Origin: Neoarius graeffei
Taxonomy: Eukaryota; Chordata; Actinopteri; Siluriformes; Ariidae
NCBI RefSeq assembly: GCF_027579695.1
Contig: NC_083587.1
Location: 2,312,501-2,376,500, forward strand
Length of the DNA: 64,000 nucleotides
Direction of reading: 5' to 3'
Shown here in pieces: positions 907-64,000 of this stretch. Numbering within the stretch: the first letter of the stretch is position 1; each line of letters starts with the position of its first letter. A program made the position numbers and the translations under genes. A model generated the notes under the pieces. It worked only from the letters and a program-made list of their open reading frames with translations, ran no database searches and had not been told where the DNA came from.

Positions 907-953
907 GTGGCGCTGAAACCTGGGACTTTGGAGCGCAGAAACAGAACAGCCCC

Positions 954-2445: not shown

Positions 2446-3960
2446 GGAGGTCCCTGTGGCGTTGGTGTCGGTGGTTCCGGAGAAGGCGGAGCTGGGGCCG
2501 GAGGTTCGAAAAGGAACATTGACATCACATACCTCTCCGGTCCCCTGTGGAGACCACCTCTCCCCGACCCAACTTGCGGAGGTTGCCCAGTTGCAGACCG
2601 AGTTTTTGGACGTGTTCTCGCCCCTGCCCGGCCGCACCAACCTCATTGAGCACCACATTGAGACGCCCCCGGGGGTGGTAGTGCATAGCCGCCCTTACAG
2701 GCTACTCAAACACAAAAAAAAGTGGTTCAGGAAGCACTTGAGACCATGCTCGAAATGGGCATCGTCGAGGAGTCCCACAGTGACTGGAGCAGCCCGGTGG
2801 TCTTGGTACCCAAGGCCGACGGGTCGGTCCGGTTCTGTGTAGACTATAGAAAAGTCAATGCAGTGTCTAAATTCGACGCGTACCCAATGCCTTGTATTGA
2901 TGAGTTGCTCGATCAACTAGGCACGGCTCACTTTTATTCGACACTGGATTTAACAAAGGGTTATTGGCAGATCCCCTTGACTCCATTATCCCAAGAAAAA
3001 ACGGCCTTTTCCACACCATTCGGCTTACACCAATTTGTCACACTTCCTTTTGGGCTGTTTGGGGCGCCCGCTATGTTTCAGCGGCTAATGGACAGGGTCC
3101 TCTGCCCCCACGCCACCTATGCAGCCGCCTACCTCGATGATATCATTATCTCTAGTAATGACTGGCCGAGGTACCTCCAACATCTGAGGGCCGTCCTTAG
3201 GTCACTGAGGTGAGCGGGTCTCACAGCCAACCCGAAGAAGTGTGCGATTGGGTGGGTGGAAGTACGGTATCTGGGCTTCCACTTGGGCAACAGGCAGGTG
3301 CGTCCCCAAATTAACAAGACAGCAGCAATTGCAGCCTGCCCGAGGCCCAAGACCAAAAAGGGGGTGAGACAGTTCCTGGGGCTGGCTGGCTATTATCGTA
3401 GGTTTATACCTAATTATTCGGACATCACCAGCCCGCTGACTGATCTGACTAAAAAGGGGGCATCAGATCCGGTCCAGTGGATGAAGCAATGCCAGCGGTC
3501 TTTTTCTGAGGTAAAGGCTGCACTGTGTGGGGGGGGGGGCACTTTTACACTCCCCTGACTTTTCTCTCCCCTTTATGTTACATACGGATGCGTTGGACAG
3601 AGGGCTGGGGGCTGTTTTGTCCCAGGAGGTGGAGGGGGAGGATCGCCCAGTCTTATACATCAGTAGGAAGCTGTCGGTGCGTGAGGGGCGCTACAGCACC
3701 ATTGAAAAAGTGTGCTTGGCAATCAAGTGGGCGGTCCTTGCCCTCCGTTACTACCTGCTGGGACGCCCTTTCACCCTCTGTTTGGACCACGCGCCCCTCC
3801 AGTGGCTCCACCGCATGAAGGATGCCAACGCGCAGATCACCCATTGGTATCTGGCACTCCAACCCTTTAACTTCAAGGTGATCCACAGGCCGGGGGCACA
3901 GATGGTCGTGGCGGACTTCCTCTCCTGTCAAGGGGGGGGGGAGTCGGCTGCAGGCCGGAC
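2446..3960 (+). pseudogene. Reverse transcriptase / RNase H, element A
   Basis: A linker is followed by RT beginning near 2722 (MVQEALETMLEMG). It shows the palm motif YLDDIIIS near 3130 and the thumb GLAGYYRRFIPNY, then RNase H (near 3590-3950) with TIEKVCLAIKWAV and the HRPGAQMVVADFLS end. Breaks are a frame change at the A-run near 2712, TGA at 3211-3213, and an expanded G-run at 3530-3539. The product is inactive. RT lies downstream of integrase, the reverse of most Ty3/Gypsy elements. Confidence 0.85.
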
Positions 3961-3992
3961 GGCCGCCCGGCCTGATTTGGGCGGTGGGGGTA

Positions 3993-4307
3993 TGTGGCAG
4001 CGGGGGTGTGGTCAAGCATCGGTCTGTGACCGGAGGGCGGATTCAGGGAAGGTAAGTGGCAGAATCACTGCACCTGATGTGAATTAATGTGTTTGTGTGT
4101 CTTCCCCAGTGACCACGCCCTATTTAAGGAGGGAGAGTGAGAGCAGAGGGAGCTCTTCCCCGCACCAGACGCCAGTTGTGTGTGTGTCTGTCTGTCTGTG
4201 TGCAATTTGCTGAGTGTCCACTGAAAAGTGAAAAATAAACACGGTTTACCAACCTGAGCTCTGTCCTGCCGTCTTCTGTGCTCCGCCCCTACATACAAAC
4301 TGCTACA
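3993..4307 (+). repeat. 3' LTR of element A
   Basis: 315 bp, beginning TGTGGCAGCGGGG and ending CTGCTACA. It is preceded by a purine-rich tract (GGGCGGTGGGGGTA) fitting a polypurine tract. It has a CTATTTAAGG promoter-like stretch and an AATAAA. LTRs of the same family lie at 27742-28051 and 32365-32668. Confidence 0.88.
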
Positions 4308-7795: not shown

Positions 7796-8070
7796 GACTT
7801 TGAAACTTTTTTTTTAACTGATATTCTGTTAAACTCCTGTCAGGCTCCAATGCTGAGAGACTTGTTTCTGGTTCTTATCTCGGTCACTGCATTTCATTGC
7901 AAGTTGGCCATGTGTTAACAGAAAATGAGTAATGAAATTGAACTGAACTGAACTAAAAAGCTGACTGTTCTCACAACACCAGGCCAAAAGTGGGCCTGGA
8001 TGGCCCAATCCATGTCCAGCCACTGAGTTTGTGGCAACCTGATCACACACTCTGCCTTGGGCAGGGGAGT

Positions 8071-8142
8071 GCTGTGATAGTATAGTGGTTAATATTCTGT
8101 ATTGTGACTATAGTAACCCTTGTTTGAATCTGGGTTATGGTG
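8071..8142 (+). pseudogene. tRNA-His-like relic (GTG anticodon)
   Basis: Starts GCTGTGATAGTATAGTGGTTA, close to a vertebrate tRNA-His start. GTG stands at the anticodon position and the B-box region reads TTTGAATC. Acceptor and T-stem pairing are degraded by substitutions mainly toward A/T. It lies 80 bp from an Arg-like relic, so both probably come from an old tRNA cluster. Confidence 0.7.
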
Positions 8143-13938: not shown

Positions 13939-14010
13939 TCCCATATGGTCTAGTGGTCAGGATTCCTGGTTTTCACCCAGGTGACCTGGGTTTGACTCCT
14001 GGTATGGGAA
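13939..14010 (+). tRNA. tRNA-Glu (TTC), near-intact, probably a pseudogene
   Basis: 72 nt with a 7-bp acceptor stem (TCCCATA/TATGGGA), D-arm TGGTCTAGTGGTCAGGA, anticodon stem CCTGG/CCAGG with loop TTTTCAC (anticodon TTC) and T-stem CTGGG/TCCTGG-like pairing. The T-loop reads TTTGACT where TTCGACT is expected, so the near-invariant C56 and the B box are altered by a CpG-type C to T change. That change makes function doubtful. Confidence 0.8.
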
Positions 14011-16099: not shown

Positions 16100-17151
16100 A
16101 TGGAAGATGAATTACAACAGCTGCAAGATTAGGTTGCCCAATTGCACGCGGAAAATGAGTGCCTTCGTCAACAGCCTACCGCTGGTTCTGTACAGGTGCA
16201 GGGTCCCCCGTCGGGGTTTGTCCCAGCGCCTCAGGGTGCAGAACATGTAATAGTTATACCCAGAGACCGGAAGTGTGTGATGTTTAATGGTAGAACGGGA
16301 ATTAAGATCGCTGAGTGGATTGAGGAGGTGCAGGCGTGTATGCGGGCTTGGCACCTGTCTTTAGTGGATCAGGCCTACTTCATCTTTGACCATCTAGAAG
16401 GTGAGGCAAAGGACGAGATTAAGTATCATCCAGCGGTTGAATACAGAGACCCCAAAAAGATTTTGGATATCTTGAGGGAGCTTTATGGCTGTAGTCAGTC
16501 TTATGTGACTTTACAGCAGGCCTTTTTCTCCCGGCAACAGCAGGAAGGGGAGACCCTGCAGGAATTTTCTTTAGCCCTTCTGGCATTAATGGACCAGGTA
16601 AAGAGACGGGCCCCTGATGGTGTGCCCAACTCTGAGGCCCTTCTCCATGACCAGTTTATCGCACACGTCTTAGACAGCAGTCTTTGTCGGGAACTGAAGC
16701 AGTTTGCCCGGCGGGAGCCTCAAGCTACACTGCTGGATATGCGTAGGGAGGCTATGAGGTGGGAACAGGAAGGATTTCCTGGGGGGCTAGGGCACGAAGC
16801 TTCTCTTTGCCAGCTGCATATGGTGTACAATATGGTATACAGAGTTGCCCCCCTTTGGCCTCTCCTACGGCTTTTCAGGGTAATGAGTTGGGGGAATTGA
16901 AAGAACTTTTGAAGCGGCAGCAGGAACAGCTGAACCAGCTTACTCAAACTGTGGCCTCTCTACAGCAGGCACCAGTTTACCCTCATCCGCCACGTTATGG
17001 GTCTGTAATATGTAGACGGTGTCAGCAGCCGGGTCACTTTGCACGAGACTGTGATGGGCAACGAGTTCCTTTTCGACCGCGAGCCAGCTCGAGTTCTGGG
17101 CAACCCTCCAATATGGGAGGGGCCTCCTCTTCTCAGCAGTCGGGAAACTGA
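16100..17151 (+). pseudogene. Gag of element C
   Basis: ATG 16100 is followed by in-frame TAG at 16130-16132, then an open frame to about 16900. It encodes a capsid-like domain (IKIAEWIEEVQACMRAWHL, LREFYG-like LRELYGCSQSY, LQEFSLALLALMDQVKR). A frameshift near 16790 shifts the rest to another frame. That frame has a coiled-coil-prone ELKELLKRQQEQLNQL and the zinc knuckle CRRCQQPGHFARDC (C-X2-C-X4-H-X4-C), ending at 17151. The same early TAG occurs in the copy at 504, so it predates the duplication. Confidence 0.85.
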
Positions 17152-17219
17152 AACCCACTGAGCTGCTGGGCCACAGCTCAGTTGGGGGACTTGCTGGCTC
17201 TTCACATAGGGCCCCTTCT

Positions 17220-18191
17220 ATGCTCATGTCATCATGTCCAACTCTTGATGTCATTATAGGGGGCGTGATTGTCCTGTGCTTGGTGGACACGGGATCGATG
17301 GTGTCCACCATAACAGAAAGCTTCTTCTTAACCCAGTTTGAGCCATGGGGCCAGGAGCGGCTTCAGTCTTGCCATTGGATGCAGTTGAAGGCAGCCAATG
17401 GGCTGTTTATTCCGTATATAGGCTACTTGGAATTGGATTTTGTTCTGTGCAGCAAGGTTATACCCCGGTGCAGTGTCCTGATTGTGAAAGACCCCCAGGG
17501 AGGCCCTCCCAGCGTCCCGGGGGTCCTTGGTATGCATGTGATAAGCCGGTGTTATCAGGAACTGTTTGGGGCACATGGCCCTGCATTGTTTCTTTCTCCT
17601 TCTGTTTTTCAGGCCCCAGGTCCAGTCATTGAGGCTCTACAGCATTGTCATCTGGCTGCAGCTCAAGTTCCACACCCGCATTATGGAGCCACCCGTGTTA
17701 GGGGTCCACGGGTGGTGAGAATTGGCGGTGGCACTATGTGGTTTGTGGCGAGTACTTGCTCGGAGCAACTTTTAGGCCAGACCATACTGTTTGAGCCATC
17801 TGAGTCTGGGTTACCAGCTGGTTTGCTGGTCTCACCCTGTTTGGTCCAGGTAGATCAGGGCACTGCTTTTGTGCCTGTGGTGAATGTGGGAGTGACTGAT
17901 GTGTTGCTTTATCCACGGGTCAGTTTGGGGTCCCTGACTAGTGTGGAGATAGTTAGTTTGCCAGCTGGGGTTTCAGAAGTCTACCCCATTTCAGCATCCA
18001 TCTCTTCCCACGTAGCCACAGAGGAAGGTGAAGACAGAGTGGCCAGTGTGGATCTATCTGCCTTGTCAGAATCAGAGCAGGCCAAAGCAAGAAGCTTGTT
18101 GAGGTGTTACCATATGGTTTTCTCCAATCATGAGAGTGATTTGGGGTGCACCAATTTGATATCGCATGACATCCTGGATGAGGCTGGATGA
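17220..18191 (+). pseudogene. Protease region of element C pol
   Basis: Contains the aspartic protease motif LVDTGSMVS near residue 22 and a later VLGMHVISRC block corresponding to the flap and second half. It continues as a poorly conserved linker toward RT. It goes out of frame with RT at 18170-18190, where CTGGATGAGG is duplicated in tandem. That 10-bp gain explains the frame break. Confidence 0.8.
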
Positions 18192-19677
18192 GGCACCTGT
18201 TCGGCAACGACATCGCCGTATTCCACCTTCTGATTATGAAGCTGTGAAAGTTCATATAAACCAGCTCTTGGAATCACAGGTAATAAGGGAAAGTAGTAGT
18301 CCTTACACATCTCCCATCGTCTTGGCTAAAAAGAAAGATGGTAGTCTGCGTATGTGCGTAGATTACCGCTTGTTGAATAGCAAGACGCGGAAGGACTCGT
18401 TTCCCTTGCCGCAAATTGAAGAAAGCTTGGATGCCCTAGCTGGGGCTCAGTGGTTTTCTACACTTGACCTCACTAGTGGCTATAACCAGGTGCCGGTCTT
18501 GGAGCAGGATAAGCCCAAAACGGCCTTCTGTACTCCATTTGGTTTGTTTGAATGGAACAGGATGCCTTTTGGGCTTTGTAATGCTCCAAGTACCTTTCAA
18601 TGTCTGATGCAACGGATGTTTGGAGACCAGCAGTGTCAGTCGCTTTTGTTGTATTTGGACGATATTGTCATCTTTTCCTCTTCCGCCCATCAGCACTTGC
18701 AGCGCCTGGAAACCGTCCTTAGCCGTCTCCATACCGAAGGCTTAAAGGCCAGGTTGGAGAAGTGTGCTTTCTTTCACCAACAGGTTAAGTACCTGGGGCA
18801 CGTCATTTCTCGTGAAGGGGTTGCCACAGATCCATCTAAAATTGAAGCAGTCTCGACTTGGAAAAGACCTCGTTATGTTTCTGAGCTGCATTCTTTTTTG
18901 GGCTACGCAGGTTATTACCGCCGCTTTGTGGAGGGTTTTGCGAAGCTGGCGGGCCCGCTGCACAAGTTGGTGGCCGACCTAACCAATAGGAAGGTCAAAC
19001 GGGGAACTGGGCAGGATTTGGGAACCGCATGGACAGGGCAGTGTGAGGAGAGCTTTGAAGCCCTGAAGGCCAAGCTGGTGTCAGCACCTGTCTTGGCCTA
19101 TGCTGATTTTTCCCGTCCTTTCATTCTGGAGGTCGACGCCAGCCATAGTGGCCTTGGCGCTGTACTTTCCCAGGAATGGGAGGGGGTGGTCCGGCCGGTG
19201 GCTTATGCCAGCCGAGGTCTTAGGCCCACTGAGCGCAACTTGAGTAATTATAGCTCTATGAAATTGGAGTTTCTTGCGCTCAAGTGGACCATGACCGAAA
19301 AGTTTAGAGAATATCTTTTGGGCCAGCGATGCGTTGTATATATGGATAATAACCCCTTGAGCTATTTACATTCTGCTAAATTGGGGGCCACAGAGCACCG
19401 GTGGGCTGCACAGCTGGCAGCCTTTGACTTTGAAATCAAGTACCGGTCGGGCCGCAGCAATAAAAATGCAGATGCCCTGTCTAGGCAGTACATGTCTGGA
19501 GCCAGTTTGGGGGAGTATGTGCTTCCTGGGACGGTAGTCCCAGTAGATTTACAACAAGCCCCTGCAGTATCCCAAGCTGGCCCAGCCGTAAAGGTTCCAT
19601 TTCTGTGTTTCCTCAACGGTTGGCTTTGGAGGTTCGGGCCCTTCAAGAAGCCGACCCAACATTGGGGACTGTGTTAA
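18166..19677 (+). CDS. Reverse transcriptase-RNase H of element C
   Basis: A 503-codon open frame. RT motifs are LAKKKDGSLRMCVDYRLLN, FSTLDLTSGYNQVP, TPFGLFEWNRMPFGL and catalytic LLYLDDIVIFSS (near 18650). RNase H follows with PFILEVDASHSGLGAVLSQ and SSMKLEFLALKWT, then DNNPLSYL and the end NADALSRQ. The active-site YLDD and the RNase H D-E-D residues are visible. The frame shifts near 19610, so integrase is not in frame. The domain itself looks intact. Confidence 0.88.
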   Translation: MTSWMRLDEAPVRQRHRRIPPSDYEAVKVHINQLLESQVIRESSSPYTSPIVLAKKKDGSLRMCVDYRLLNSKTRKDSFPLPQIEESLDALAGAQWFSTLDLTSGYNQVPVLEQDKPKTAFCTPFGLFEWNRMPFGLCNAPSTFQCLMQRMFGDQQCQSLLLYLDDIVIFSSSAHQHLQRLETVLSRLHTEGLKARLEKCAFFHQQVKYLGHVISREGVATDPSKIEAVSTWKRPRYVSELHSFLGYAGYYRRFVEGFAKLAGPLHKLVADLTNRKVKRGTGQDLGTAWTGQCEESFEALKAKLVSAPVLAYADFSRPFILEVDASHSGLGAVLSQEWEGVVRPVAYASRGLRPTERNLSNYSSMKLEFLALKWTMTEKFREYLLGQRCVVYMDNNPLSYLHSAKLGATEHRWAAQLAAFDFEIKYRSGRSNKNADALSRQYMSGASLGEYVLPGTVVPVDLQQAPAVSQAGPAVKVPFLCFLNGWLWRFGPFKKPTQHWGLC

Positions 19678-21020
19678 CCTTTTGGCGGAGGGGATCTCCA
19701 CCCACTGCAGCGGAGAGATTGGTAGCTTCCAAGCCAGTGTTGGGCTTTTTGCGTCAGTGGTCTCGCTTGGTTGAGAGGGAGGGAGTGTTATATCGTCTTG
19801 TCTTTAGATCAGATGGGAAGGAAGAATTGTTTCAGCTCCTTTTACCCTCTTCCCTTCAATCTGAAGTTTTACAGCAGCTTCACCAAGACCACGGCCACCA
19901 GGGAGTGGAGCGCACAGTTGAACTTGTGCGCCGCCGCTGTTTTTGGCCAGGGTTGCGCTCTGATGTCCAGCGGTGGTGTAGGGAATGTGGCTGGTGCCAG
20001 CTGGCAAGAGATTCGGGCCCTTCCTCGCATAGTTTTATGGTCCACCTCCTGGCATCTCGGCCCAATGAAATTGTGGCGATTGACTTCACCCAGTTGGAAG
20101 CGTCTAGAAATGGAGTCGAAAATGTGTTGGTCATGACGGACGTATTTAGCAAGTATACTCAAGCTGTGCCTACCCGTGACCAACGAGCCCAAACTGTCGC
20201 TCAGGTACTACTGCATTAGTGGTTTTATAGGTTTGGGGTGCCTAGCCATATCCACTCTGATCAGGGGAGGTCATTTGAAAGTGGTCTTATACAGCAGCTT
20301 TGTTCCCTGTATGGTGTAACAAAATCTCGCACCACTCCCTACCATCCGGCAGGGAATGGGCAATGCGAACGGTTTAACAGGACCCTCCATAATTTGCTTC
20401 ACCCTATACCAACTACCCAGAAGCATGACTGGATGTCTTGTCTCCCACAGGTAGTATACTGTTATAACACCACCCCACATCACACCACTGGAGAGTCTCC
20501 CTATTTTCTTATGTTTGGGCGGGAACCCATGCTTCCCATTGATTTTCTTCTGGGACGCGTTCAAGAACCATTGCCAGGGACAGTTCAACAGTAGATCATT
20601 GAACATCAGGAAAGGTTGAGGTTGGGCTTCCAAGGTGCACGGGACTGGCTGGTGGCCGCTGCAGAATGTAGAAAAGAGCATCACGATTTACAGGTGCATG
20701 AAGCCCCATTAGTAGAAGGCCAGTTGGTCTATCTAAGGGACCACAGTGCTAGAGGTCGGCATAAGATTCAAGACCTCTGGAGTCCGGTCTCGTACCAGGT
20801 ACTCCGAGCACCTGTTGGACACGGGGCAGTTTACACTATCGCTCCGGTGAGCAACCTGTAAAAAGCCCGAATGGTCCATCGTGACCAGTTAAAGCCGCAG
20901 TTTCCTCTGGCCTATGTCATGCAGCAGCCTTCAGCTCTAGCCGCTGCTCACCCCGTTCCCTCTGACCAGCCACCACCTGAGGAGGAGCAAGTTTTGCTCA
21001 TAGTTCGTGATTCTCTATAA
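19605..21020 (+). pseudogene. Integrase of element C
   Basis: The HHCC zinc domain is seen as LHQDHGHQGVERT and CRECGWCQ. The catalytic core holds IAIDFTQLE-like (VAIDFTQLE), HSDQGRSFES and NGQCERFNRT, giving the D,D,E residues. Stops interrupt at 20217 (after QVLLH), 20592 (after GTVQQ, a Trp position) and 20859. The C-terminal region (EGQLVYLRDHS, RMVHRDQLKP) lacks a clear chromodomain. A Ser/Thr-rich ORF at 21021-21395 has no recognisable envelope features. Confidence 0.82.
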
Positions 21021-25779: not shown

Positions 25780-27736
25780 TCAGGAGAGCATTATTCTTCT
25801 GTTGTGGTGAGACGTGGCAAAATGTCTCACGTACTCATCAATGTTGAGGGCATGTGCCCTCCTTGTCTCAACACTAAGCGTTCCGAGATGACTTAATCTG
25901 TCATCAACCATTGTGGTCCTCAGGTGAGTCTTTATAAGTTTTAAAGCTGAGAAGCTTCACTCACAGGACGCAGTGCTTACTGGTGTTATAACAGCGATCT
26001 TGCAAAGCCTGAAGAGCTCATGGAAGACCTCTTTGTAAGGCTCGAGAAAAACAAGAAAATAGAGCAACGTACTGTAGATGATCTGTCTAATCCACTCTTC
26101 CCTCTCCTATCCAATAGTCGCTTTGTTTGGTGAACCTCATGCTTGAGGTCCCCTAAATCTGACTCATACATCTGTGCAAAGGCAAACAGAAGCTCTTTGC
26201 TCAGGAAAGTTGCACTCGTTGGGTTCAGAGACTGCACCCCTTGCATAATCTCACAACTTTTCTTTGAAAACCGTCTCTTCATTTCAGCTATGAGACAGTC
26301 AATCACCTGATAGAAAAGTGCTCTAGAGAAGCCCTCATCATCACAATTCCTCTGGCCTACAGTGCTCATCTTGAGTCAAGAAATCTTGAGCTGATTCTGG
26401 GATGTCTTTTATATTGTGTTTATACACCAATTTTGCATTGGTCAGCCAGTTCCTGAATCTCTTTCCATAGTTCATCAAAGTAATTTTCATCTCTGTGTCC
26501 TGGAGACTGTCTGTACTGGTAAGTGCACCTACTAGATCCACAGCCCTAGCTAGATCAAGTGTGCTGGACTGTAGCATGTCAGAGAGACATTTAGCATCAC
26601 CAAACACTTTGCAAAATGTCACTAAAAGCCCTAAGAACTGTAGGTCTATCTGGGAAAGAAGACCCCTTGCCTCAACTGATCTGTCACCACTTATTTCCAG
26701 TCCAAGATCCTGCAACAGTCTAAGAACTGCTGGAAGCCTGTCCTTCAGATTACGGCATGCCGTGTATCTGCATGCCCATCTTGTGTCTGAAAGTGCCTGT
26801 AGCTCCCTAGGCTGCTGCAGTGGGTAAAGCTCTTTCTGAACAGCAAGCCACTTCATGTGCACATAAGAGCCAGATACAAAGTTATACAGCTGCTGCAAAA
26901 GTGCAAAAAGGTCAACCACCTCAGGCACTGCTTTTGTAGCATCAGCAAGAACCAACTTCAAGCAATGTGAATTACAGTGAACATAAAATGCAAATCTGGC
27001 ATTATTTTGAATCCTTGCAGACACACCTGAATGCTTGCCGCTCATGACGGATGCACCATCATACCCCTGCCCCACAAGGTTATTTCTGTAGTCCAGTCCA
27101 TGTCCCTCTAAACAACTGATAATCATTTGGCTAAGACCAGCTGCATTGAGGCTGTCAGCTGCTTGAAAGCACAAAAAACTTTAATGAATGGCACCATTGT
27201 AATAATACCATAAAACTATAGACATTTGTTCCTTTTTTTTTGCAAGTCTTTTGTTTCATCAGTGAGCACACTAAACACCTCATGTTCTTTCACTTCTTTT
27301 TATGATTTCACTCTGTACCATCTCAGCTAAGCCCTGAAGAATTTTGTTCTGGATTTGGTGACACTGGTGTACTTAGCATTTCCAGATGCTTCCAACCTTT
27401 TCTCAATAAATTGGTCATGTTTTGTGATTTTGTGCAATATGGCCAAAAAATTTCCCTTATTCACAGAGTCTTCAGACTCTCGATGCCCCCTCTGAGCGAT
27501 ATTCTGTGTTGCTGTCAAAAGCAGTACACTAGCTATCGTTTTTATGTAATTTCTGTTTTCTTCCACTTTCTTTTGATGGTTCTCATTCATTGAATTTAAC
27601 ATTGACATGTTTGTCTCTGTATCCATTCTAAACCTGTTCCAAGCATACATAGCATTTATATGAAATTCAGATTTTGAATGGCTCTTAAAACCAGAGTCTT
27701 TAAACAATGCTTTCTTACAATTAGAGAAGCCTGAAG
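25780..27736 (-). pseudogene. hAT transposase core and dimerisation domain
   Basis: 27327-27736 continues the TTF region (SGFKSHSKSEFHINAMYAW) into the linker. Frameshifts near 27344 and 27308 precede VFSVLTDETKD, the first catalytic Asp region. 26341-27174 is a long open part with GYDGASVMSGKHSGVSARIQ, CNSHCLKLVLADAT and SDTRWACRY. Frameshifts at about 26365 and 26090 lead to the C-terminal dimerisation domain (FSALKLIKTHLRTTMVDDRL), which carries a TGA where Arg is expected. The frame ends at 25780. It is an inactive hAT transposase. Confidence 0.85.
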
Positions 27737-28051: not shown

Positions 28052-28097
28052 GTGGTGCTGAAACCCGGGAACTGGAGCACAGCAGCCTCACAGCCCC

Positions 28098-28988
28098 ATG
28101 GAGTCCTCCCTGTTCACTGAACTGGTCCACGCCCTCACCACGGCCCAGCAAAGCCAGCACCAGGCACTACTCACCCTCCGAAAGGAGCAAGAAGAGCGGT
28201 TCGAGGCCCTGGTGTTGGCTCAACAAGAAGACCGACAGGTGTTCCGGCACCTCCTCGCGTCGGCGGGGCCCACCAGCGCTCCTACCGCAGGCCCATCTCC
28301 CCTCACCGTCACCAAGATGGGCCCGCAGGACGACCCCGAGGCATTCATCATGCTCTTTGAGCAAGTCGCCGAAGCCTCGGGGTGGCCGATGGAGCAGCGC
28401 TCGGCGCGCCTCCTCCCCCTGCTCACAGGAGAAGCACAGCTGGCCGCGCTACAGCTCCCCGCTGACCGCCGGCTGGCCTATGCGGACCTCCGCTGGGCCA
28501 TCCTCCAGCGCGTGGGGCACACTCCAGAACAGCAGCGCCAGCGCTTCCGCGCGCTGCGCTTGGAGGAAGTCGGCCGGCTGTTCGCGTTTGGCCAGCAGCT
28601 CTGGGACACCTGCTGGCGGTGGCTGAGGGCCAACAACCGCGACGCCGAAGGAATCCTCGACCAGGTGGTGCTGGAACAGTTCGTCGCTCGCTTGCCAGCA
28701 GGAACTGCGGAGTGGGTCCGGTGCCACCACCCAGCGTCGCTGGATCAGGCAGTCGAGCTGGCGGAGGACCATTTGGCGGCTGTCCCGGCGGCAGGACAGC
28801 AGATGGCATCTTCTCTTCTCTCCTCTTCTCTCTCTCTCTCTCTCTCCCCCTCCTCCTGTGTCCCGTCCTCGCCCCATTCCCCCACCGCGGAGGTGGGGGC
28901 CGGCGCCACCCCAGCCAGCCCACCGCACCCACGGTGCCCTCCCATTTCTCCCTTCTGTGTCTGTCTCTCCCCCACCTCAGGTGAGTGA
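28098..28988 (+). CDS. Gag of element B, with SCAN-like capsid region
   Basis: A 296-codon frame. An N-terminal coiled-coil-prone part (RKEQEERFEALVLAQQEDRQ) is followed by DDPEAFIMLFEQVAEASGWP. Then comes a helical region (QRQRFRALRLEEVGRLFAFG, QVVLEQFVARLPAGTAEWVR) that resembles the SCAN domain of vertebrate zinc-finger proteins. SCAN is known to derive from Gmr1-like Gag. A CT microsatellite near 28826-28850 and a frame change separate Gag from the CCHC knuckle. Confidence 0.82.
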   Translation: MESSLFTELVHALTTAQQSQHQALLTLRKEQEERFEALVLAQQEDRQVFRHLLASAGPTSAPTAGPSPLTVTKMGPQDDPEAFIMLFEQVAEASGWPMEQRSARLLPLLTGEAQLAALQLPADRRLAYADLRWAILQRVGHTPEQQRQRFRALRLEEVGRLFAFGQQLWDTCWRWLRANNRDAEGILDQVVLEQFVARLPAGTAEWVRCHHPASLDQAVELAEDHLAAVPAAGQQMASSLLSSSLSLSLSPSSCVPSSPHSPTAEVGAGATPASPPHPRCPPISPFCVCLSPTSGE

Positions 28989-29535
28989 GCCCCAGATCAC
29001 TGGTGCAGAGGGAAAGCCCAGGCCGGTTTGCTGGCGCTGCGGGGAGCCGGGCCACCTTCAACAGCAGTGCACAGCAATGAAAGTGGGCACGGTGGTTTGG
29101 ATACCCGACGCGCCAGAGGCCACCCTCGATCGGGCTGGAGTGTATCGCATACCGGTGAGTATCCAAGGGGATACATATCAGGCATTGGTGGATTCTGGTT
29201 GTAACCAGACCTCAATTCACCAAAGCCTGGTGCAAAACAAAGCATTGGGAGGAGCACAGGGGGTGAAGGTGTTGTGTGTGCACGGGGATGTTCATTGCTA
29301 CCCTTTGGTGTCGGTCCACATTATTTTCAGAGGGGAAAAATTTATAGTGAAGGTGGCGGTTAATCCCCGCCTTACCCACTCTTTAATTTTGGGGACTGAT
29401 TGGCCGGGATTTTCGGGGTTTAATGACATGCCTAATAAAGAGTGGGTCCTGCCATTTAACAGGGGGAGGTCCCGGTGTTGCTTTGGCGGGAGCAGCTGTC
29501 ACAGAGCTGTCTACGTCATCTCCGCGTCAGAGTGA
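28987..29535 (+). pseudogene. CCHC knuckle and protease of element B
   Basis: In the +1 frame relative to Gag. The knuckle CWRCGEPGHLQQQC (C-X2-C-X4-H-X4-C) near 29030 is followed by protease with YQALVDSGCNQTSI (active-site D-S-G) and LILGTDWPGF. The frame ends at 29535 after a shift, and integrase continues in another frame. The shift relative to Gag may be natural or caused by the CT repeat. Confidence 0.82.
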
Positions 29536-29631
29536 GGAGCCGCCGGCTCCTCCTCTCTCTATTGGGGAACCCTCGCGGATTTCCCATTAGAACAATCGCG
29601 AGACGAGACTCTGCGACATGCGTTTGACCAA

Positions 29632-31090
29632 GTGAGAGTAATCGATGGTCAAACGCTCCAGCCGAACGCCACCCCGTCCTTCCCCTACTTCGCAATTATG
29701 AAGGATAGGTTATACCGAGTGACGCAGGACATTCAAACTAAAGAGCGAGTCACGCAGCTTTTAATTCCGAAGAGCCGCTGGGAATTGGTATTCCAGGCGG
29801 CTTACTTTAATCCCATGGCTGGACACTTAGGGCAGGAGAAAACACTAGCCCGAATAATGGCCCGATTCTATTGGCCGGGGATTCGCTGCGATGTTTGTAG
29901 GTGGTGTACGGCATGCCGCGAATGCCAGTTAGGAAATCCAGCGGCCATTCCAAAAGCGCCTTTGCGCCCTCTTCCATTAATCAAGACCCCGTTTAAGAGA
30001 ATTGGGATGGATCTCGTCGGGCCATTAGATCGGTCAGCATGAGGGTACCACTTTATATTAGTTCTGGTGGACTATGCAACGCGATACCCGGAAGCAGTGC
30101 CTCTGCACAATATCTCAGCACGCAGTATTGCAGAGGCGCTCTTCCACGTCATCTCCCGAGTTGGAATCCTGAAAGAGATTCTGACTGATCAAGGCACTAC
30201 ATTTATGTCACGGACACTGCGCAAACTGTATGGGTTATTGGGGATTAAGCCGATCCGCACCAGCGTGTATCACCCACAAACGGACGGTTTAGTAGAACGG
30301 TTCAACCGCACCCTCAAAAATATTATTAAAAAATTTGTAAGTGAGGACGCACGTAATTGGGATAAGTGGCTCGAGCCCTTGCTGTTCTCAGTGCGAGAAG
30401 TCCCCCAAGCCTCCACGGGGTTCTCCCCGTTCGAATTATTATATGGGCGTAAGCCGCGCGGCATCCTAGATGTGCTGCGGGAAAATTGGAAGGAGGGACC
30501 TTCACAAAGCAAAAACGAAATTCAGTACGTTATGGACCTGCGCGCAAAACTCCACACGCTCACCCACCTAACTCAGGAGAATTTGCGGCAGGCCCAGGAA
30601 TGGCAAGCCCGCCTGTACAACAAGGGTACGCGCCTTAGAGAGTTCACTCCAGGAGATAAGGTACTCATACTGTTGACCACGTCGAGCTCCAAATTGATCG
30701 CCAAGTGGCAAGGACCCTTTGAGGTCAAACAGCGTGTCGGGGATGTCGACTATGAGGTGAGGCGAACGGACAGGGGTGGGGTGCTACAGATTTACCACCT
30801 CAATCTGCTTAAACTCTGGAACGAGGAGGTCCCTGTGGCATTGGTGTCGGTGGTTCCAGAGAAGGCAGAGCAGGGGCCGGAGGTTCAAAAAGGGACATTG
30901 GCATCACGTACCTCTCTGGTCCCCTGTGGAGACCACCTCTCCCCGACCCAACTCACGGTCACCCAGTTGCAGACCGAGTTTTCGGATGTGTTCTCGCCCC
31001 TGCCCGGTCGCACTAACCTCATAGAGCACCACATAGAGATGCCCCCGGGGGTGGTAGTGTGTAGCCGCCCTTACAGGCTACCCGAACACA
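29632..31090 (+). pseudogene. Integrase of element B
   Basis: HHCC domain (HLGQEKTLARIMARFYWPGI, CTACRECQ), core start GMDLVGPLD, then TGA at 30040-30042 where the other copy has CGA. The same frame resumes: VDYATRYPEAVPLH, LTDQGTTFMSR, YHPQTDGLVERFNRT, FELLYGRKP and GDKVLILL, ending YHLNLLKLWN. The D,D,E residues are all visible. A linker runs to the A-run near 31090, where RT goes into another frame. Only one nonsense change breaks the domain. Confidence 0.88.
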
Positions 31091-31097
31091 AAAAAAG

Positions 31098-32459
31098 GTG
31101 GTTTGGGAAGAACTTCAGACCATGCTCGAAATGGGCATCGTCGAGGAGTCCCACAGTGACTGGAGCAGCCCGGTGGTCTTGGTACCCAAGGCTGACGGGT
31201 CGGTCCGGTTCTGTGTGGACTGTAGAAAAGTCAACGCGGTGTCTAAATTCGACGCATACCCAATGCCTCGTATTGACGAGCTGCTCGATCGACTAGGCAC
31301 GGCTCGCTTTTATTCGACACTGGATTTGACGAAGGGATATTGGCAGATCCCCTTGACTCCACTATCCCAAGAAAAAACGGCCTTTTCCACACCATTTGGG
31401 TTACACCAATTCGTCACACTTCCGTTTGGGCTGTTTGGGGTGCCCGCTACGTTTCAGCGGCTGATGGACCAGGTCCTCCGCCCCCACGCCACCTATGCGG
31501 CTGCCTATCTTGATGACATCATCATATATAGTAATGACTGGCCGAGGCACTTGGAACACCTAAGGGCCGTCCTTAGGTCGCTGAGGCGAGCGGGTCTCAC
31601 AGCCAACCCAAAGAAGTGTGTGATTGGGCGGGTGGAAGTACGGTATCTGGGCTTCCACTTGGGCAACAGGCAGGTGCGTCCCCAAATTAACAAGACCGCA
31701 GCAATTGCAGCCTGCCCGAGGCCCAAGACCAAAAAGGGGGTGAGACAGTTCCTGGGGCTAGCTGGCTATTATCGTAGGTTTATACCTAATTATTCGGACG
31801 TCACCAGCCCGCTGACTGATCTCACTAAAAAGGGGGCACCAGATCCGGTCCAATGGACGGAGCAATGCCAGCGGGTTTTTTCGGAGGTAAAGGCTGCACT
31901 GTGTGGGGGGCCACTTCTACACTCCCCTGACTTTTCTCTCCCCTTTATGTTGCAGACCAACTTTTTGGACAGAGGGCTGGGGGCGGTTTTGTCCCAGGAG
32001 GTGGAGGGGGAGGACCGCCCCGTCCTGTATATCAGCAGGAAGCTGTCGGTGCATGAGGGGCGCTACAGCACCATAGAGAAAGAGTGTCTGGCCATCAAGT
32101 GGGCGGTCCTCGCCCTCCGGTACTACCTGCTGGGGCACCCTTTCATCCTCTGTTCGGACCACGCGCCCCTACAGTGGCTCCACCGCATGAAGGATGCCAA
32201 CGCGCGGATAACCCATTGGTATCTGGCACTCCAACCCTTTAATTTCAAGGTGGTCCACAGGCCGGGGGCGCAGATGGTCGTGGCGGACTTCCTCTCCCGT
32301 CGGGGGGGGGGGGAGTCGGCTGCAGGCCGGACGGCCGCCCGGCCTGAGTCGGGCGGTGGGGGTATGTGGCAGCAGGGGCATGGTCAAGCGCCGGTCTGTG
32401 ACAGGAGGGCGGAGTCAGGGAAGGTGAGTGGCAGAATCACTACACCTGAGAGCAATTAA
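31098..32459 (+). CDS. Reverse transcriptase-RNase H of element B
   Basis: An open frame of 453 codons. RT: VLVPKADGSVRFCVDCRKVN, FYSTLDLTKGYWQIPL, TPFGLHQFVTLPFGLFG and catalytic AAYLDDIIIYSND near 31505. Thumb FLGLAGYYRRFIPNYSD. RNase H: RGLGAVLSQEVEG, STIEKECLAIKWAV, SDHAPLQWL and HRPGAQMVVADFLSR. The first RNase H Asp position reads LQTNFLDRG, where Asp is usual (the other copy has HTDALDRG), so RNase H may be impaired. The frame ends in the 3' LTR. Confidence 0.88.
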   Translation: MVWEELQTMLEMGIVEESHSDWSSPVVLVPKADGSVRFCVDCRKVNAVSKFDAYPMPRIDELLDRLGTARFYSTLDLTKGYWQIPLTPLSQEKTAFSTPFGLHQFVTLPFGLFGVPATFQRLMDQVLRPHATYAAAYLDDIIIYSNDWPRHLEHLRAVLRSLRRAGLTANPKKCVIGRVEVRYLGFHLGNRQVRPQINKTAAIAACPRPKTKKGVRQFLGLAGYYRRFIPNYSDVTSPLTDLTKKGAPDPVQWTEQCQRVFSEVKAALCGGPLLHSPDFSLPFMLQTNFLDRGLGAVLSQEVEGEDRPVLYISRKLSVHEGRYSTIEKECLAIKWAVLALRYYLLGHPFILCSDHAPLQWLHRMKDANARITHWYLALQPFNFKVVHRPGAQMVVADFLSRRGGGESAAGRTAARPESGGGGMWQQGHGQAPVCDRRAESGKVSGRITTPESN

Positions 32460-41165: not shown

Positions 41166-43354
41166 CATACATGTCAACCCCTTTGGGCGTCCACCTGTAG
41201 TATCAGAGGAAGAAATCCATAAAATCAACATAAAATCCTTATAGCCTTCCAATCGCACCAATCTTAATAAATAAATAACAGGGGCAAAGACAGGTTTTTA
41301 ATTTGGGCACCATGGCAAGCATAAATTTTTTTTTTTTTTACTATTTTCGCGGGTAGCGTGCCGAAAATTTTTGACGCATCATTTTTAGTAATTTTTTTTA
41401 ACCAATTATAAATATATCGAGCAATAAAAATAATAGGAATGACATAATCATGTGCAAGTATAAAATAGTGCTGTATCTAAAAAGTCAAAAGTTTTCTCAA
41501 ACATTCTGAATAAATAAAAAAAGATAAAAATAGTTCATGAATTTTTTATATGCATGAAAAATGGGAAACAATATGTAATATCAGTCTATTTGCACAAGAA
41601 TATGGGCAGCAGAGAACTTTAAAATCTCAGACAGTGAAACAATAATGATCTAGAACAATCAAAATATCAAAAATATGACATATGTATCTGTCTAAATTAA
41701 GCTATTAATACATATCGAAAAAGCTAGAATATGTCAATTCAACAATATCTAGCTAGAATGTCAATTCAACAATTAAAATAAAACAAGATATCAATATATA
41801 ATATAACCACATAAAATAGTTTGTAGTATGTCTTTACATATATTAATAATAGGTCCAGTAGTATAATTAGTATAACAGTCATTCAACAACACAATTAAAG
41901 TTATTACTCTTAGAATTATCACAAACCGACAGCCACGTGTTATCATGAATCATTGAGAATTTCACAACAAACAAAGGAAGTATATTTTACGACATTCAGA
42001 TGTCAGAGACTCAGACACGGTTTATGGTAATCGCTAGACGCATTTCATGTTCACTTCATGTTATGAAGCGACTGAACAACAAATTGAAATATATATATGC
42101 CAAAAAATGACATTTAACAATTTTAAAATATTTTGGGTTCTCCACCCTTATGAAACAGGATTTTTTCTTCTAATTTGGGCGATTTTCGTATGTTCTATTT
42201 TGGGCCTTTTGACAAGCCCATAAGTTGGGCGCCGTTATACGGTACGTAATTGGGGCTGTATTTGCCCTTGAATAAGTAAATATAACTTGCCTGAGAACTT
42301 CGTCCAGCATGTCGAAAATCGCCTCACCCGTGCCGATATTGCACACAGGCATGTCTATGATTCTTGACTTCGCCCCTCTGTTTATATCGAAGATCCACAC
42401 CAAAACGGCCAGTCGCTTTTTGTCATTGGATTAGTCGATCATCAAGGAAAATGGCAATGTCCGGCAGTGCTGGATGATCGGTAGTGTAGCTTCGGGGGCC
42501 AAGCTCTTTTTGATTATTTGCGTTGTTTTTTTGCGCCTACAGCTGATAGATTTCGCAATCGTACTGTCCGTGCAAATTCGCGGCAACAGTTCTGTCTGGT
42601 GGTCCGCAACGGCTAGCGGCAAATTGTGCTGAGCAATAAAATTACAGATCGTAACTTCTGCTCTTATTACACTTGTTGGTTGATCATCGGTCTTAGGCTT
42701 TGCAAACATCGTCATTTGCGGCTGATTCTGTTTCTGGTGCAAATTTCGCTGATGTAGTTTGGACCTCATGTGTTCCCTCACGTCGTAAACTCCAGATGCC
42801 ACAACTTTTGTATCTCGCACACAAACTGTGCAGTGCGCATACTCCTCATTTTTCGCCTGAACAATGACACCATTAAATGTCTCCTTCCGTTCAGGAAGAT
42901 ACTGCCCGCCGTATCTCATTTTCTTTCTCAGTGTTCCCATTCTTTCACTCAGCAGACGCTATTCATAATCTCTCAGGTGTAAACAATGTCGCTCTGCACA
43001 ATGAGAAAATCGTTCGAACAATGACTGTTTGACGCGTTTAAATGCAGATCGTGCGCATGACTGGAACGAGCGAAGTCTCGCAGTTGTGATACTGCACGAG
43101 GCTTGAGGAATAAACATCCGGTTTCACATAGTCTGGGTTATCTGCCCCTGCATACATGCTGTTCTTTGTCTATAAATCGAGCTTTTGTATGTTTTTGCGA
43201 CGATCAGCTGACGATGTTCAAGTAAGATACACAAAATAAATTTAGGTCAGAAAATACTGAAAATCCATAAGACTTTGTTTATACGCCCATACGCCCTTGA
43301 AATGAGCTAAAATTTGTATAATTTCCGGACAATCCGTATAGGTTGACATGGATG
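41166..43354 (-). mobile_element. TIR element with BED-type finger protein remnant, 6-bp TSD
   Basis: Ends CATACATGTCAACC and, inverted, CATCCATGTCAACC. The 6-bp direct repeat GTCTTC lies at 41160-41165 and 43355-43360. Inside, on the minus strand, are the N-terminus and first core block of a hAT-like transposase. The left half (41300-42150) is A/T-rich non-coding sequence. A 6-bp duplication is not typical for hAT (8 bp), so the superfamily is uncertain. Confidence 0.75.
42170..42940 (-). pseudogene. hAT-like transposase fragment with BED finger
   Basis: Begins MGTLRKKMRYGGQYLPERKE. The finger is CTVCVRDTKVV...H-X4-H (HMRSKLHQRNLH). Then come FIAQHNLPLAVADHQTELLP and STIAKSISCRRKKTTQIIKK. 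At 42431 a TAA replaces an acidic codon in the MIDxSND motif, and the frame continues KRLAVLVWIFDINRG. The C-terminal half and dimerisation domain are missing. No intact product is expected. Confidence 0.72.
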
Positions 43355-43360
43355 GTCTTC

Positions 43361-45526
43361 GGTGGGTGCCATGAAATGTTATCCTAACCATAGCCTAATG
43401 TAGGCTAATGTTAACGTTATCTTGTATGCGTGGGTGAACTGCCATTTTCACATTGTAACATTAGCTAAGTTAAAACTCTGGTTAAAATACAAAAAACGAT
43501 CTCATATCTGAACATAAAAGTGACTTTAAATTAAATGACTGACTCATACCGAAACAACCATAAAACTTACCTCAGAATGACTTCACCATTCACCAACAAG
43601 CAGGCAGCTGCTCTTCTTGGTTCTTCTCTTCTCCCCACCACGAAATAAAGTTTCTCTCCCGAAAATATGACTCTATTCTCCTCCTCCTCCTTATAATGGT
43701 GGATTTACATTGACAGTAGGGTGGATTACAATGCTTTGTGATACATAGTGCCAACTATTGCACAGTAGGAACTTAGCACTCAACAGCAATACCGATTACA
43801 AAATGCAACAGGATCTTCTCAAAAGACGTGTGGTGCCGTGACATGTCAGTCATCTGGGGTGGCACCTGGGGGGTTCAATCAGATTTCGGGGGTGTCCAGT
43901 GCCCCCCTGGCCACCCCTCTGGCTCCACCTATGCTCACATGTTGTCTTTGGCATGCTTCTCCCACTTTTGGGGCATGTCTCAGGAAGCATTTGTTGCTTC
44001 ATTGTTTGGTGAGAGCAGCTAGGCTAAAGGTGGTGAAAAGTGCATTTTTAGGACAGGCGCTCGCTTTTTACAAGCAGGTTTAAGAATACAAGCAGGTAAG
44101 CATCATATTTTCAGTTTGTAAAAGCTGTCTAAGTTGACTTTGCACACGAGCAAGAGTTAGAAGTTTACAATGGATGGTGGGAATATGACAACAATTTGAT
44201 CTTGACTTGGCTGAAAGTGCAGATGATTCAGATGGTTTGCAAGATGACAAGAAAATTTTTCTCCCTAAAATGCAAGCAAGGTGGCAGCTGCTGTTTTGGA
44301 GAAAGTGGGCATCAATCCCACTACCTCTTACATGCAAACCAAGTGCTCCACCACTTGAGTTAATTCCCATGCAGCATGCTAGGGTTTGTCCAAGTAAAAC
44401 ATAATATCATGACCATTTATCATTAATAAACTGTGATTATTTTTTTTCTTTTTGTTTGTTAAATCATCAAACATTTCTTGTATAATGTATCCAACTTACC
44501 AATGTCAGCATGAGTGAGGAAAAGCAAGAAGAAGAGGAACATTGTTGTTATGAGTGTTTAGTTCAGACCACTAATTTTAGAAATAAACACCAGTGTTGCG
44601 TATTTGAGATTGTCTCTGATGTCTCCATGTAGCTCCACCCACTCATATTGATTCATATTCACCACGACTCTGCTTCAGCTTATAATACACAAGCCTTTAT
44701 TTGTATTTCTGTGACTTTAATAAATTGCAACAACTTTGCATTTTATACAAACCCACTTGATCTTATAAGCAAAATAATATGTTCAATTACTGCTTTATTC
44801 TGGTCTTGGTCATGGTGGATCTGGCATTACTCTGCATGGAGCAAGAACACATTCTGGATGGGACACCAGTCCAACGCAGGATACTGTACACACACAAATT
44901 CACACTTCCAGGCAATTTAGTGTAGCCAAGCCACCTAAATACATGTTTGAATGATACAGTAAGAAAAAGTGTCATCACTAAATTATATTTTAGCATATAT
45001 ACATGACCCCATACATCAACATTGTGTCTGATCAAATATTGTCATAAAACAAGGAAAAGTGAATTCGACTAACAGTTTCCTTATTCATCCATTTCATCTT
45101 TACTGTATCTGTACAACCAAACTCACATCTCTTCAGAGTTCATCCAAGCCCTTTGCCGTAGCTCACATCAACTAAAGTGACATGCATTTGTACATACATG
45201 CATAATAAAAACATGAATGAAAATTGATTACAGCAAATCATTGGGAAAAACTGAACAGAAATGAATTAATTCCACAAGGTGTACACCAGTAACACCTGAC
45301 ATAATGAATGTGATATTTTCCTTTAAATATATTTTGGAGCATCAAAAAATGTAGATTTGTGAATTTACTGTGATTGATATGTCGTTGTTGTGTTAATCTT
45401 TATTCTTCTTTTCTGTTTCTTTCAGCTGCAGGTGCTGCCATAATTGTTGTTTGTGTCTGTAGTTAACTGATAAGTTGGAATCTTTAATCTTCAGTAGTTT
45501 TAGAAACTTCATATCCACCATTTGTA
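43361..45526. other. No gene recognised
   Basis: 43848-43921 is G/C-rich; its inverse begins CAGAGGGGTGGCCAGGGGGG, resembling a hAT end, but no partner was found. 44780-44940 resembles a dispersed fish repeat (GGGACACCAGTCCAACGC). The remainder is unique-looking A/T-rich sequence downstream of the TRAV segment. No further V segment, J segment or constant exon was seen. Confidence 0.4.
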
Positions 45527-45565
45527 TGTTTTTGTACAGCCTTTCATTGACTCTGTATTACTGTG
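45527..45565 (-). promoter_or_regulatory. V(D)J recombination signal, 23-bp spacer
   Basis: Minus strand: heptamer CACAGTA (45559-45565), spacer of exactly 23 bp (45536-45558), nonamer ACAAAAACA (45527-45535). The consensus is CACAGTG and ACAAAAACC. It directly abuts the 3' end of the V exon, as required for a TCR alpha V segment. It would pair with a 12-spacer J signal. Confidence 0.93.
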
Positions 45566-45874
45566 CTGCTACTCCGAGAGCACAGTGATAGAGCGCAGAA
45601 TCTGAGAGCTTTAGACCTCTGATAGTAAGTTCAGTAGAGTCTGAGGTTGTTGCTGTCTCTAATCGAGTGTCAGTTGGAGTGCTCCCAGAACGATATGACC
45701 TTGCACCTTTATACAGTAAAAACTATGGTGCGCTGTTAGGATATTGTTTGTACAAGTAAAGATAAATGTCATTGCCGCTTGACTCATATGAACATTTCAG
45801 AGTAACGGTGTCTGTTTCTTTCCCCATAATGTTGGCATCTTCATTCGTTGGGACAATTTTATCTGCAAAACTGC
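45566..45874 (-). pseudogene. TRAV: T-cell receptor alpha V segment (V exon), stop in FR2
   Basis: An acceptor after a pyrimidine tract (TTTTTTACAACAG) opens the exon: SFADKIVPTNEDANIMGKET, then TVTLKCSY (first Cys), LYLYKQYPNSAP, TAG at 45723-45725, FLLYKGARSYRSG, STELTIRGLKLSDSAL and YHCALG (second Cys). The framework order and DSALYHCAL end are those of fish TRAV. The TAG stands at a position usually Gln. No intact leader was found: upstream sequence is split by a TIR element at 46037 and has stops in the splice-compatible frame. It is therefore called a pseudogene. Confidence 0.9.
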
Positions 45875-46682
45875 CTGTTGTAAAAAAGAAAATAAAGAAA
45901 GAATTCTGGGAAATATGTTTTGTCAACAATATTGACTTCAGAAATGATGAAATTACTCGATTAATGCAAAGTTGGGTGTTCATTAATACAATTAATTAAT
46001 TTATTTATGAAAGTGAATTACCTGTTGTGACAGTGACTACGTTTACATGCACGTCCAAATCGAGCTGCTGTCGGTAATCGAGCAAAGGGTCCCAGCAGGG
46101 GTGCCAGAGAAATCCAATCCTACATGCACAAGTGAAATCGGGCTATTGTGCAAGGTGCATTGTGCACCCGAGCCACACGTGGCGCTACACGCCCCATCGT
46201 GTTGGTACACTTCCGGTTGTCGTCATGAAGAAGAGCTATAGTGTTGCCAGATACTGCTGACGTTTTCCAGCCCAAAACATGTTCAAATCGGCTAAAATGC
46301 ACTTAAAACCCCCAATCTGGCAACACTAGTCCGTGTTCAAGCTGTTAGGCTTGCTCTAACAGACTATGGCTACAAACTGTCCGGCGCAGACCACTGTTTT
46401 GTAAGACAACTTATTTTGCACAATAATATTTTTCTAAAGTCCATTTTTTGCTTACAAAAAATTATTATTTTTTGCTTACAAAAAATTATTTTTTGCTTAC
46501 AATTTAACTTATGTCTTAATAAACACACAAAAAGTTCAATTGTTTTGTTTTTATTGACATTCTTCAGATGTTGGACATTTTATATATATATATATACATA
46601 CACACATACATACACACACACAATGACTTGTTTATGTACACAATTCACAGCTATGCAACAGATGTATTTGGTGATACAGTAA

Positions 46683-47949
46683 TGGCCCTTTTCCACTACC
46701 CTTTTTCAGCTCACTTCAGCTCGCTTCAGCTCACTTCAGCCCGACACGGCTCGCGTTTCGACTACCAAAAACCAGCACGACTCAGCTCGTTTCAGCCCTG
46801 CTTAGCCCCTAAAACTCGCACCGTTTTGGAGTGGGGCTGAAGCGAGCCAAGCCGTGCCGAGTGAGGTTGGGGGCGTGAGCAGACACTCCCCTGTGCACTG
46901 ATTGGTGAGGAGGAGTGTCCTCACATGCCCACACACGCCTCGCGAGCGCGCTGGGATCTGTAAACACCGCAAACCCGGAAGAAGAAGAATTACGAATTAC
47001 GAGAATTTCTGGAGCCTTATGCGCCTTGCCTCATCTATACGCTCTTGCCAGTATCTGTTGGCGTTGTCGGTGACAACAAGCCACAGCACCAAGACCAGCA
47101 ACACTAACGACTCCATGTCCTCCATGTTTATTGTTTACTATTCGGGTCGTGAGACTACCGCTTAAAAGATCACTGAATCAGTGACATACAGAGCATCGTG
47201 GACGAGTTCGCGGAGCGCAAGGCTCGTCGTATGCCCTTCAAATAATGCGCGCAGTAGGCTATTGATGTTTTATTATGAGCCATGTACAGTATGTCGCCTA
47301 ATGTTTTTTTGTTTCTGAGTTACATGTTCGTTTGAAGGACTTAATGTACAAAATAACATAGTTGCACCCCGTAGTGTTGAAATTGGTAAACACAGTGCAT
47401 TCAGTGAGGTTTGCACCGCCCTCCTTTTATTTCTGACTCTTCCTGTCACCGTTGCAACCTCTGAGCGCTCATTCGTATGCCCTTCAAATAATGTGCGCAG
47501 TATAGGCTATTGATGTTTTATTATGAGCCATGTACAGTATCCTAATGTTTTTTGTTTCTGAGTTACATGTTCGTTTGAAGGACTTGATGTACTAAATAAC
47601 ATAGTTGCACCCGGTAGTGTTGAAATTGGTAAACACCGCAGTTGCGGACATTTTGTAGCCTAAAATGATGTTATGATAAGCTTTAATAAAGGGCCCGGTC
47701 ATTTGCCCCGCCCCCGGCCCGGCTCTGACTTGTTCCTCCACTGTCACTGATGTCACTGTTTGCGCTGCTTAACGACATCACATGACGTCCACCCACTTTC
47801 GCTAACTCCACCCAATGTGTCCACCCACTTCCAGCCAGCACGGTTCAGCGCGGTTGTAGTCGAAATGCAACTCCAACAGCCCCGCTCAGCCCAACTCAGC
47901 TCGACTCGGCACGGCACGGCTCAGCCGCGTTTGTAGTGGAAAAGCGGCA
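46683..47949. mobile_element. Harbinger-like MITE, TAA TSD, subterminal repeats
   Basis: Ends TGGCCCTTTTCCACTAC and, inverted, TGCCGCTTTTCCACTAC. TAA lies at 46680-46682 and 47950-47952, fitting the TWA preference of PIF/Harbinger. Both subterminal regions are packed with short AGCTCAGCTCG/GGCACGGCTC repeats in inverted arrangement. Inside are a 166-bp direct duplication and pieces resembling a hAT transposase end. Confidence 0.85.
47228..47636. repeat. Direct duplication, 47228-47393 and 47474-47636
   Basis: Two copies start CGTATGCCCTTCAAATAATG and end GAAATTGGTAAACAC with few differences. The 80 bp between them encode, on the plus strand, LTLPVTVATSERSF, the hAT dimerisation motif. Just before the first copy, VDEFAERKARRMPFK and a stop resemble a hAT C-terminus. 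This looks like a partial tandem duplication of a hAT 3' end. Confidence 0.75.
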
Positions 47950-48291
47950 TAAGTGAGCTAAATTTTAACAGTGCAAACAATGCCACAAAAAGAAAAGATT
48001 CATGCCGTTGTCATGATTCGTTGTCATGCCGACCGAGGTTGTTGTGTTTCCCGCTTGTGGTCTCGTCACTCGTCACTTCCGGAAGTAGCTCGACAACTAG
48101 CTCGATAGAGTATACATGCACAAAGTAGCTCGGCAGAAATCGCATAAACTAGGTGGTGTAGCTCGATTCCGAGAAATCAAGTTCGGTTCAATTTCAGCCG
48201 AATTAAGGTGTATACATGGCATTTTGAACTTCGATTTCAGTCGAGCAACGGCAGAAATTCGATTCTCTCTATGTGCATGTAAACGTAGTGA

Positions 48292-52008
<3,717 letters not shown>

Positions 52009-56828: not shown

Positions 56829-57740
<912 letters not shown>

Positions 57741-62852: not shown

Positions 62853-64000
<1,148 letters not shown>

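Follow-up and report, generated by a model that had tools for sequence, protein, structure and literature searches.

V segment and recombination signal in the window

The window, a 64,000-nucleotide stretch of contig C20 of Neoarius graeffei, carries on its minus strand the remains of a V gene of the TRA/TRD (T-cell receptor alpha/delta) type, which is related to intact genes on contig C1 (L010 and L019, described below). The following features make up this gene and its insertions:

45396..45526, minus: 3' flank common to the window copy and its intact C1 kin; homology stops at 45396
45527..45565, minus: recombination signal (23-RSS) with heptamer CACAGTA, a 23-bp spacer and nonamer ACAAAAACA; 3 of 39 bases differ from the intact kin
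45566..45874, minus: V exon, TRA/TRD-type V segment, 309 bp; stop codon TAG in FR2, Leu in place of the core Trp
45875..46021, minus: leader-V intron, 147 bp (145 bp in the intact kin L010)
46022..46036, minus: 3' end of the leader exon, then the GT donor, placed by alignment to L010 and L019
46037..48289, no strand assigned: DNA transposon inside the leader exon, with 17-bp terminal inverted repeats ACTACGTTTACATGCAC (22 bp at 95%)
46676..47951, no strand assigned: second repeat of ~1.27 kb, nested in the leader transposon, with copies in L020 and L018
48293..48342, minus: 5' part of the leader exon, 94% identical over 50 bp with L019

The V exon encodes an immunoglobulin V domain with the translation SFADKIVPTNEDANIMGKETDTVTLKCSYESSGNDIYLYLYKQYPNSAP*FLLYKG...DSALYHCAL. 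Both core cysteines are present, the first in TLKCSY and the second in DSALYHCAL, and the exon starts at a CAG acceptor behind a pyrimidine-rich stretch. The initial annotation had described an Ig V exon with both cysteines, a DSALYHCAL end, a 3' splice acceptor and a TAG in FR2, and all of these were found at 45566-45874 on the minus strand. The TAG is in frame (SAP*FLLY) and corresponds to CAG in L010; the core Trp of FR2 is likewise not kept, with TTG (Leu) in the window vs. TGG in L010. Because the stop splits the domain, the two halves of the exon matched Pfam V-set separately (E 1.8e-4 and 0.05), both below the gathering score; the intact kin reached 53.1 bits against a cut-off of 26. 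Matches in the PDB to the read-through translation (X at the stop) included human Vdelta1 and TCR alpha chains, and the best was an antibody light chain. PDB matches were dropped as a guide to chain type, as alpha, delta and light chains were not separated by them.

The 23-RSS lies directly 3' of the V exon. A 23-RSS pattern, relaxed so that CACAGTA-N23-ACAAAAACA would fit, matched the window nowhere else, and none of 100 shuffles contained any match. The heptamer still has CAC, the spacer is still 23 bp and the nonamer still has its A-run. Of the three changes relative to the C1 kin, two affect consensus positions, with A for G at heptamer base 7 and A for C at the end of the nonamer. At both places L010 agrees with the 23-RSS consensus used. 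The signal had been called textbook; its layout of heptamer, 23-bp spacer and nonamer abutting a V exon stands, and the word is slightly too strong for a signal that has lost two consensus places. The signal had also been said to look usable; it departs from consensus at those two places, and no partner segment was found for it in cis.

Leader, intron and inserted elements

Because the leader-V intron is retained, as is the 3' flank, the window copy is not a processed one. The leader was said to be disrupted, which is right, as its exon pieces at 46022-46036 and 48293-48342 are separated by a transposon. The inverted ends of this element (ACTACGTTTACATGCAC) are at 46036 and 48289, with a possible 3-bp target duplication, TGA, judged by eye. 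Two copies of the nested repeat in L020 were 97.2 and 97.6% identical to it, and one copy in the C20 flank (L018) was 97-99% identical by 200-bp pieces. Homology to the kin ends at 48342, before the start codon is reached. The copy has no intact V gene structure: the leader is split, the part with the start codon was not found and the V exon is not open. Its designation as a pseudogene is sound on the evidence of the TAG, the change of Trp to Leu and the split leader.

Surroundings of the V segment on C20

The window V segment lies by itself in the part of C20 that was covered. A signal scan of 144 kb of C20 (the window with 40 kb added at either end) detected no further V signal, and tblastn of four V proteins against the same 144 kb gave just the window V and a 12-residue match (E 0.86) at 26815-26850, which was taken for chance. 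Pattern scans and tblastn found no J segments, other V relics or receptor locus in C20:2272501-2416500. Downstream of the window signal, at a distance of 0.9 kb, 44402-44648 is a 247-bp stretch ~75% like L009 3140-3395 and L020 8332-8587, which lie among the C1 V genes; either a shared flank or an old repeat may account for it. Apart from this stretch, the 200-bp pieces of 43001-45400 and 48401-48800 had no match in the 33 loci compared.

The window has several other features. Frames at 831-4084, 16133-20591 and 28062-32456 are presumably pieces of Ty3/gypsy-type retroelements, and the parts of the first of these stretches (831-4084) are unusually ordered. Arrays of 84-bp units, seemingly frame-broken, occupy 48928-51923, 56829-57740 and 62853-64000, where the DNA is dense in transposons and lies 2.3 Mb into the contig; we take these units to be C2H2 zinc-finger units. 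Two tRNA-family matches were detected on the plus strand, at 8071-8142 (35.6 bits) and 13939-14010 (56.8 bits). Several matches between ~4.0-15.7 kb of the window and the part of C20 that runs from ~11.6 kb ahead of the window into its first bases recur at an offset of ~15,596-15,616 bp, which suggests a direct duplication at the left edge of the window.

Closest relatives and chain assignment

A search of the genome with the consensus 23-RSS pattern gave 312 places vs. 83 for the reversed pattern; the matches listed, about the first hundred of the 312, cover C1 and part of C2. Among the V genes read, the closest kin of the window V are two intact genes on C1 that are ~78% identical to it, each with a 67-nt leader exon and an open frame:

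C1:24447834, plus: L005/L010 (one place), 77.8% identical to the window copy over 653 aligned columns
C1:29671342, plus: L019, 77.7% identical over 660 aligned columns

The alignment with L010 runs from the end of the leader through the intron, exon and signal to 131 bp past the signal. Differences to L010 by part were 40/158 in the leader end and intron, 54/306 in the exon, 3/39 in the signal and 27/116 in the 3' flank. Fisher tests gave p 0.017 for signal vs. intron, the signal being the less diverged of the two, 0.067 for exon vs. intron and 0.17 for signal vs. exon. Over 102 codons, dN was 0.19 and dS 0.23 between the window V and L010. The low divergence of the signal fits past constraint, as would be expected of a life as a working V segment before decay, and leaves the move itself undated. 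A closer source gene than L010 or L019 may exist unseen, because the nearest kin read is 22% diverged.

Amino acid identity of the window V was 65.7% to the V of L010 and 23% to a gamma V; two genes of the other C1 V type gave 43% and 41%. In a tree of 16 V regions, all of this genome and with no named teleost TRAV set, the window V fell in the C1 alpha/delta group (96/93), apart from gamma and light-chain V regions. It was placed there as the sister of L010 and L019 (82/79), a fork that is not strong. According to the excerpted account of the channel catfish genes, leader exons are 40-43 nt in TRAV and 64 or 67 nt in TRDV (PMC8656973). The initial annotation had named the segment a TCR alpha V. 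It is an alpha/delta V segment, and the term alpha is doubtful in view of intact kin whose 67-nt leader exon has a length given for catfish TRDV. Delta-like would be the better label: the kin have leader exons of 67 nt, and L009, which belongs to the other C1 V type, has one of 40 nt as counted from the sequence. The window V, whose own leader is broken, is judged from its kin and by the catfish rule to be probably delta-like rather than alpha.

Origin of the window copy

We consider it very probable that the window V is an unprocessed orphon pseudogene, that is, a copy of a TRA/TRD V gene of the subgroup of the two intact C1 genes, probably delta-like, that lies outside its locus on another chromosome. 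The window is on C20, and the alpha/delta V and D genes are on C1. The initial proposal of a place in or near the TRA/TRD locus or of an orphan copy is accordingly narrowed to the orphan copy, given the separate contigs and the absence of another V in 144 kb; membership of the locus is not upheld. A DNA piece with one V gene of the L010/L019 subgroup would have been moved to C20 by duplication, or would have been left there. The copy would then have decayed without selection, through the stop, the loss of Trp, the transposon in the leader and the drift of the signal. Lacking a start and an open frame, and with no J or C found in cis, such a decayed copy would no longer be able to encode a receptor chain. 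No source breakpoint for the window copy was found, and we infer the direction and the manner of the move.

The flanks and the divergence of the copy bear on whether it might instead be the remnant of a second, older cluster of alpha/delta V genes on C20, left by the duplication of a chromosome or of the locus and accompanied by further V relics at a distance. The divergence of 22% from the closest C1 genes read fits an old split, the ~75% likeness of 44402-44648 to C1 inter-V sequence suggests that the sharing may exceed the V unit, and the C20 scan covered just 40 kb on either side of the window. This origin is nevertheless unlikely: no other V was detected in 144 kb, whereas two pairs of C1 V genes are 10.8 and 11.7 kb apart, and the flanking 200-bp pieces other than 44402-44648 were unmatched in the 33 loci. 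The transposons around the copy raise the further possibility that an element picked up the V block and spread it, so that the V-like sequence would be part of a dispersed repeat. The copy is hemmed by transposon-like frames and has one element within its leader. That element, however, sits inside the leader and therefore arrived after the V was in place, and the opossum, as far as the excerpted report describes it, already provides a lone TCR V orphon next to LINE-like sequence (PMC2275272). Dispersal, which the initial annotation had raised, can be judged in part: among the 33 loci compared, mostly chosen by their signals and no random sample, the V block matched solely the two C1 kin. Carriage by a transposon is very unlikely in the light of these findings.

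It is more improbable still that the signal was kept by use, in V(D)J joining in trans or as a site of RAG cutting. The intact heptamer CAC, 23-bp spacer and nonamer A-run and the smaller change of the signal than of the intron would agree with use. Constraint before the move, however, predicts an equally low divergence, the signal does not differ from the exon at p 0.17 and two of its three changes are at consensus places, as decay would give. Human IGH orphons are moreover said, in the portion of the source consulted, not to contribute to chains (PMC7555362). The orphon pseudogene thus remains the preferred reading of the window V. It is a small relic, one more case of receptor V segments leaving their locus as pieces of DNA and decaying among transposons, and it cautions that a good signal beside a V does not by itself place that V in a receptor locus.

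Comparison with known orphons and remnants

Orphon V segments are already known in other vertebrates, and the window copy is one more. The nearest precedent seen, as excerpted, is opossum TRMV-OR2 (PMC2275272), likewise a single TCR V orphon with an RSS on another chromosome, with LINE-like surroundings and no leader peptide. It differs in being a TCR-mu V that is 96% like a functional gene, whereas the window V is alpha/delta and 78% identical to its nearest read kin. The window V, unlike TRMV-OR2 as excerpted, retains leader pieces, which are split by a DNA transposon. The human IG orphons are also V copies off the main locus that, by the excerpted account, make no contribution to chains (PMC7555362); they derive from antibody loci and are often in sets, whereas the window V is a lone TCR V within 144 kb. 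In the excerpted description of the channel catfish TRAD locus, V genes are opposite in orientation to the C genes and broken remnants exist (PMC8656973). The leader lengths given there for catfish TRAV and TRDV match the two C1 V types read here. The catfish remnants are placed within the locus in that description, whereas the window relic is on another contig.

Apparent alpha/delta locus on C1

All 13 exact 23-RSS places at C1 18.51-29.92 Mb, among the matches listed, are on the plus strand. V exons were read at 10 of these 13 places and all 10 were open. L009 is an additional open V on C1, whose nonamer departs from the pattern. Farther along the contig, three D-like genes were detected, each with a 12-RSS 5' and a 23-type signal 3':

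C1 31.754 and 31.761 Mb, minus: two D-like genes, AGTTTTTGT-N12-TACTGTG, then GGACTGGCGTAC or GGGCTGGAGCTAC, then CACAGTG-N23-ACAAAAACC
C1 ~31.739 Mb, minus: third D-like gene, GTACAGTAC, with nonamer ACAAAAATC

V genes on one strand with inverted D genes beyond them are the layout given for teleost TRA/TRD loci in the excerpted descriptions (PMC8559430; PMC8656973; PMC13149839). The stretches just below the first two D genes yielded the one further D besides transposon-like frames. TRDC, TRAC and J segments were not found in the stretches just below the C1 D genes, of which L033 contains transposon-like frames and L035, below the third D, has N at 7,851 of its 10,000 positions. The constant genes and the J cluster would be expected below 31.73 Mb in inverted orientation; in catfish and zebrafish the D side of the locus is bordered by lamc2, nmnat2 and smg7 (PMC8656973).

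Together the C1 V and D genes span 18.51-31.76 Mb, an apparent extent of over 13 Mb if C1 is correctly assembled (L001-L010, L019, L020, L024, L031, L032, and L034). The spans reported for TRA/TRD, each from an excerpted source, are ~0.3 Mb in cod (PMC13149839), 1.14 Mb in salmon (PMC8559430) and 1.285 Mb in channel catfish (PMC8656973); that of the axolotl is given as 20.7 Mb in a 32-Gb genome. We lean towards the view that the stray V comes from a giant TRA/TRD locus stretched by transposons, in which the plus-strand V genes occupy a stretch of at least 11.4 Mb on C1 and the inverted D genes follow 1.8 Mb farther on, for a total of more than 13 Mb, ~10 times the salmon and catfish loci, in a fish genome of 2.34 Gb. 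A literature search, with subscription papers outside it, returned no multi-Mb teleost alpha/delta locus and no fish alpha/delta orphons among the matches listed.

Several V-bearing units on C1 are near copies of each other. L003 and L008 share 3,038 bp at 99.93% identity across a distance of 7.26 Mb, and ~14 kb of L009/L010 (C1:24436334-24456333) recurs piecewise at 96.5-99.1% in L020/L019 (C1:29655000-29673999), 5.2 Mb off. Identities of 96.5-99.9% over Mb distances would reflect either recent segmental duplication or an effect of the assembly.

The apparent 13-Mb spread on C1 is more striking than the stray V itself. The stray V is useful in that it draws attention to this very long alpha/delta locus, and such a locus would bear on how distant V segments are brought to J. 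If V genes have to be joined across distances of this size, the fish would be a natural test of the reach of locus contraction and RAG scanning.

Other receptor loci in the genome

Arrays on C2 were considered as V clusters and rejected; they are light-chain loci, in which the 23-RSS have nearby V exons that end in a 12-RSS. Among the matches listed, long arrays of these light-chain units occupy C2 102.68-103.91 and 116.40-120.89 Mb (L025-L030). Each unit consists of a V exon with a 12-RSS and of a 23-RSS 0.7-1.4 kb before it, and the signals are near-identical within each array. V segments of the gamma type, with CASW ends, are found on the minus strand at C1 44258235-44413899 (L021-L023), ~12.5 Mb past the delta D genes, which share this contig.
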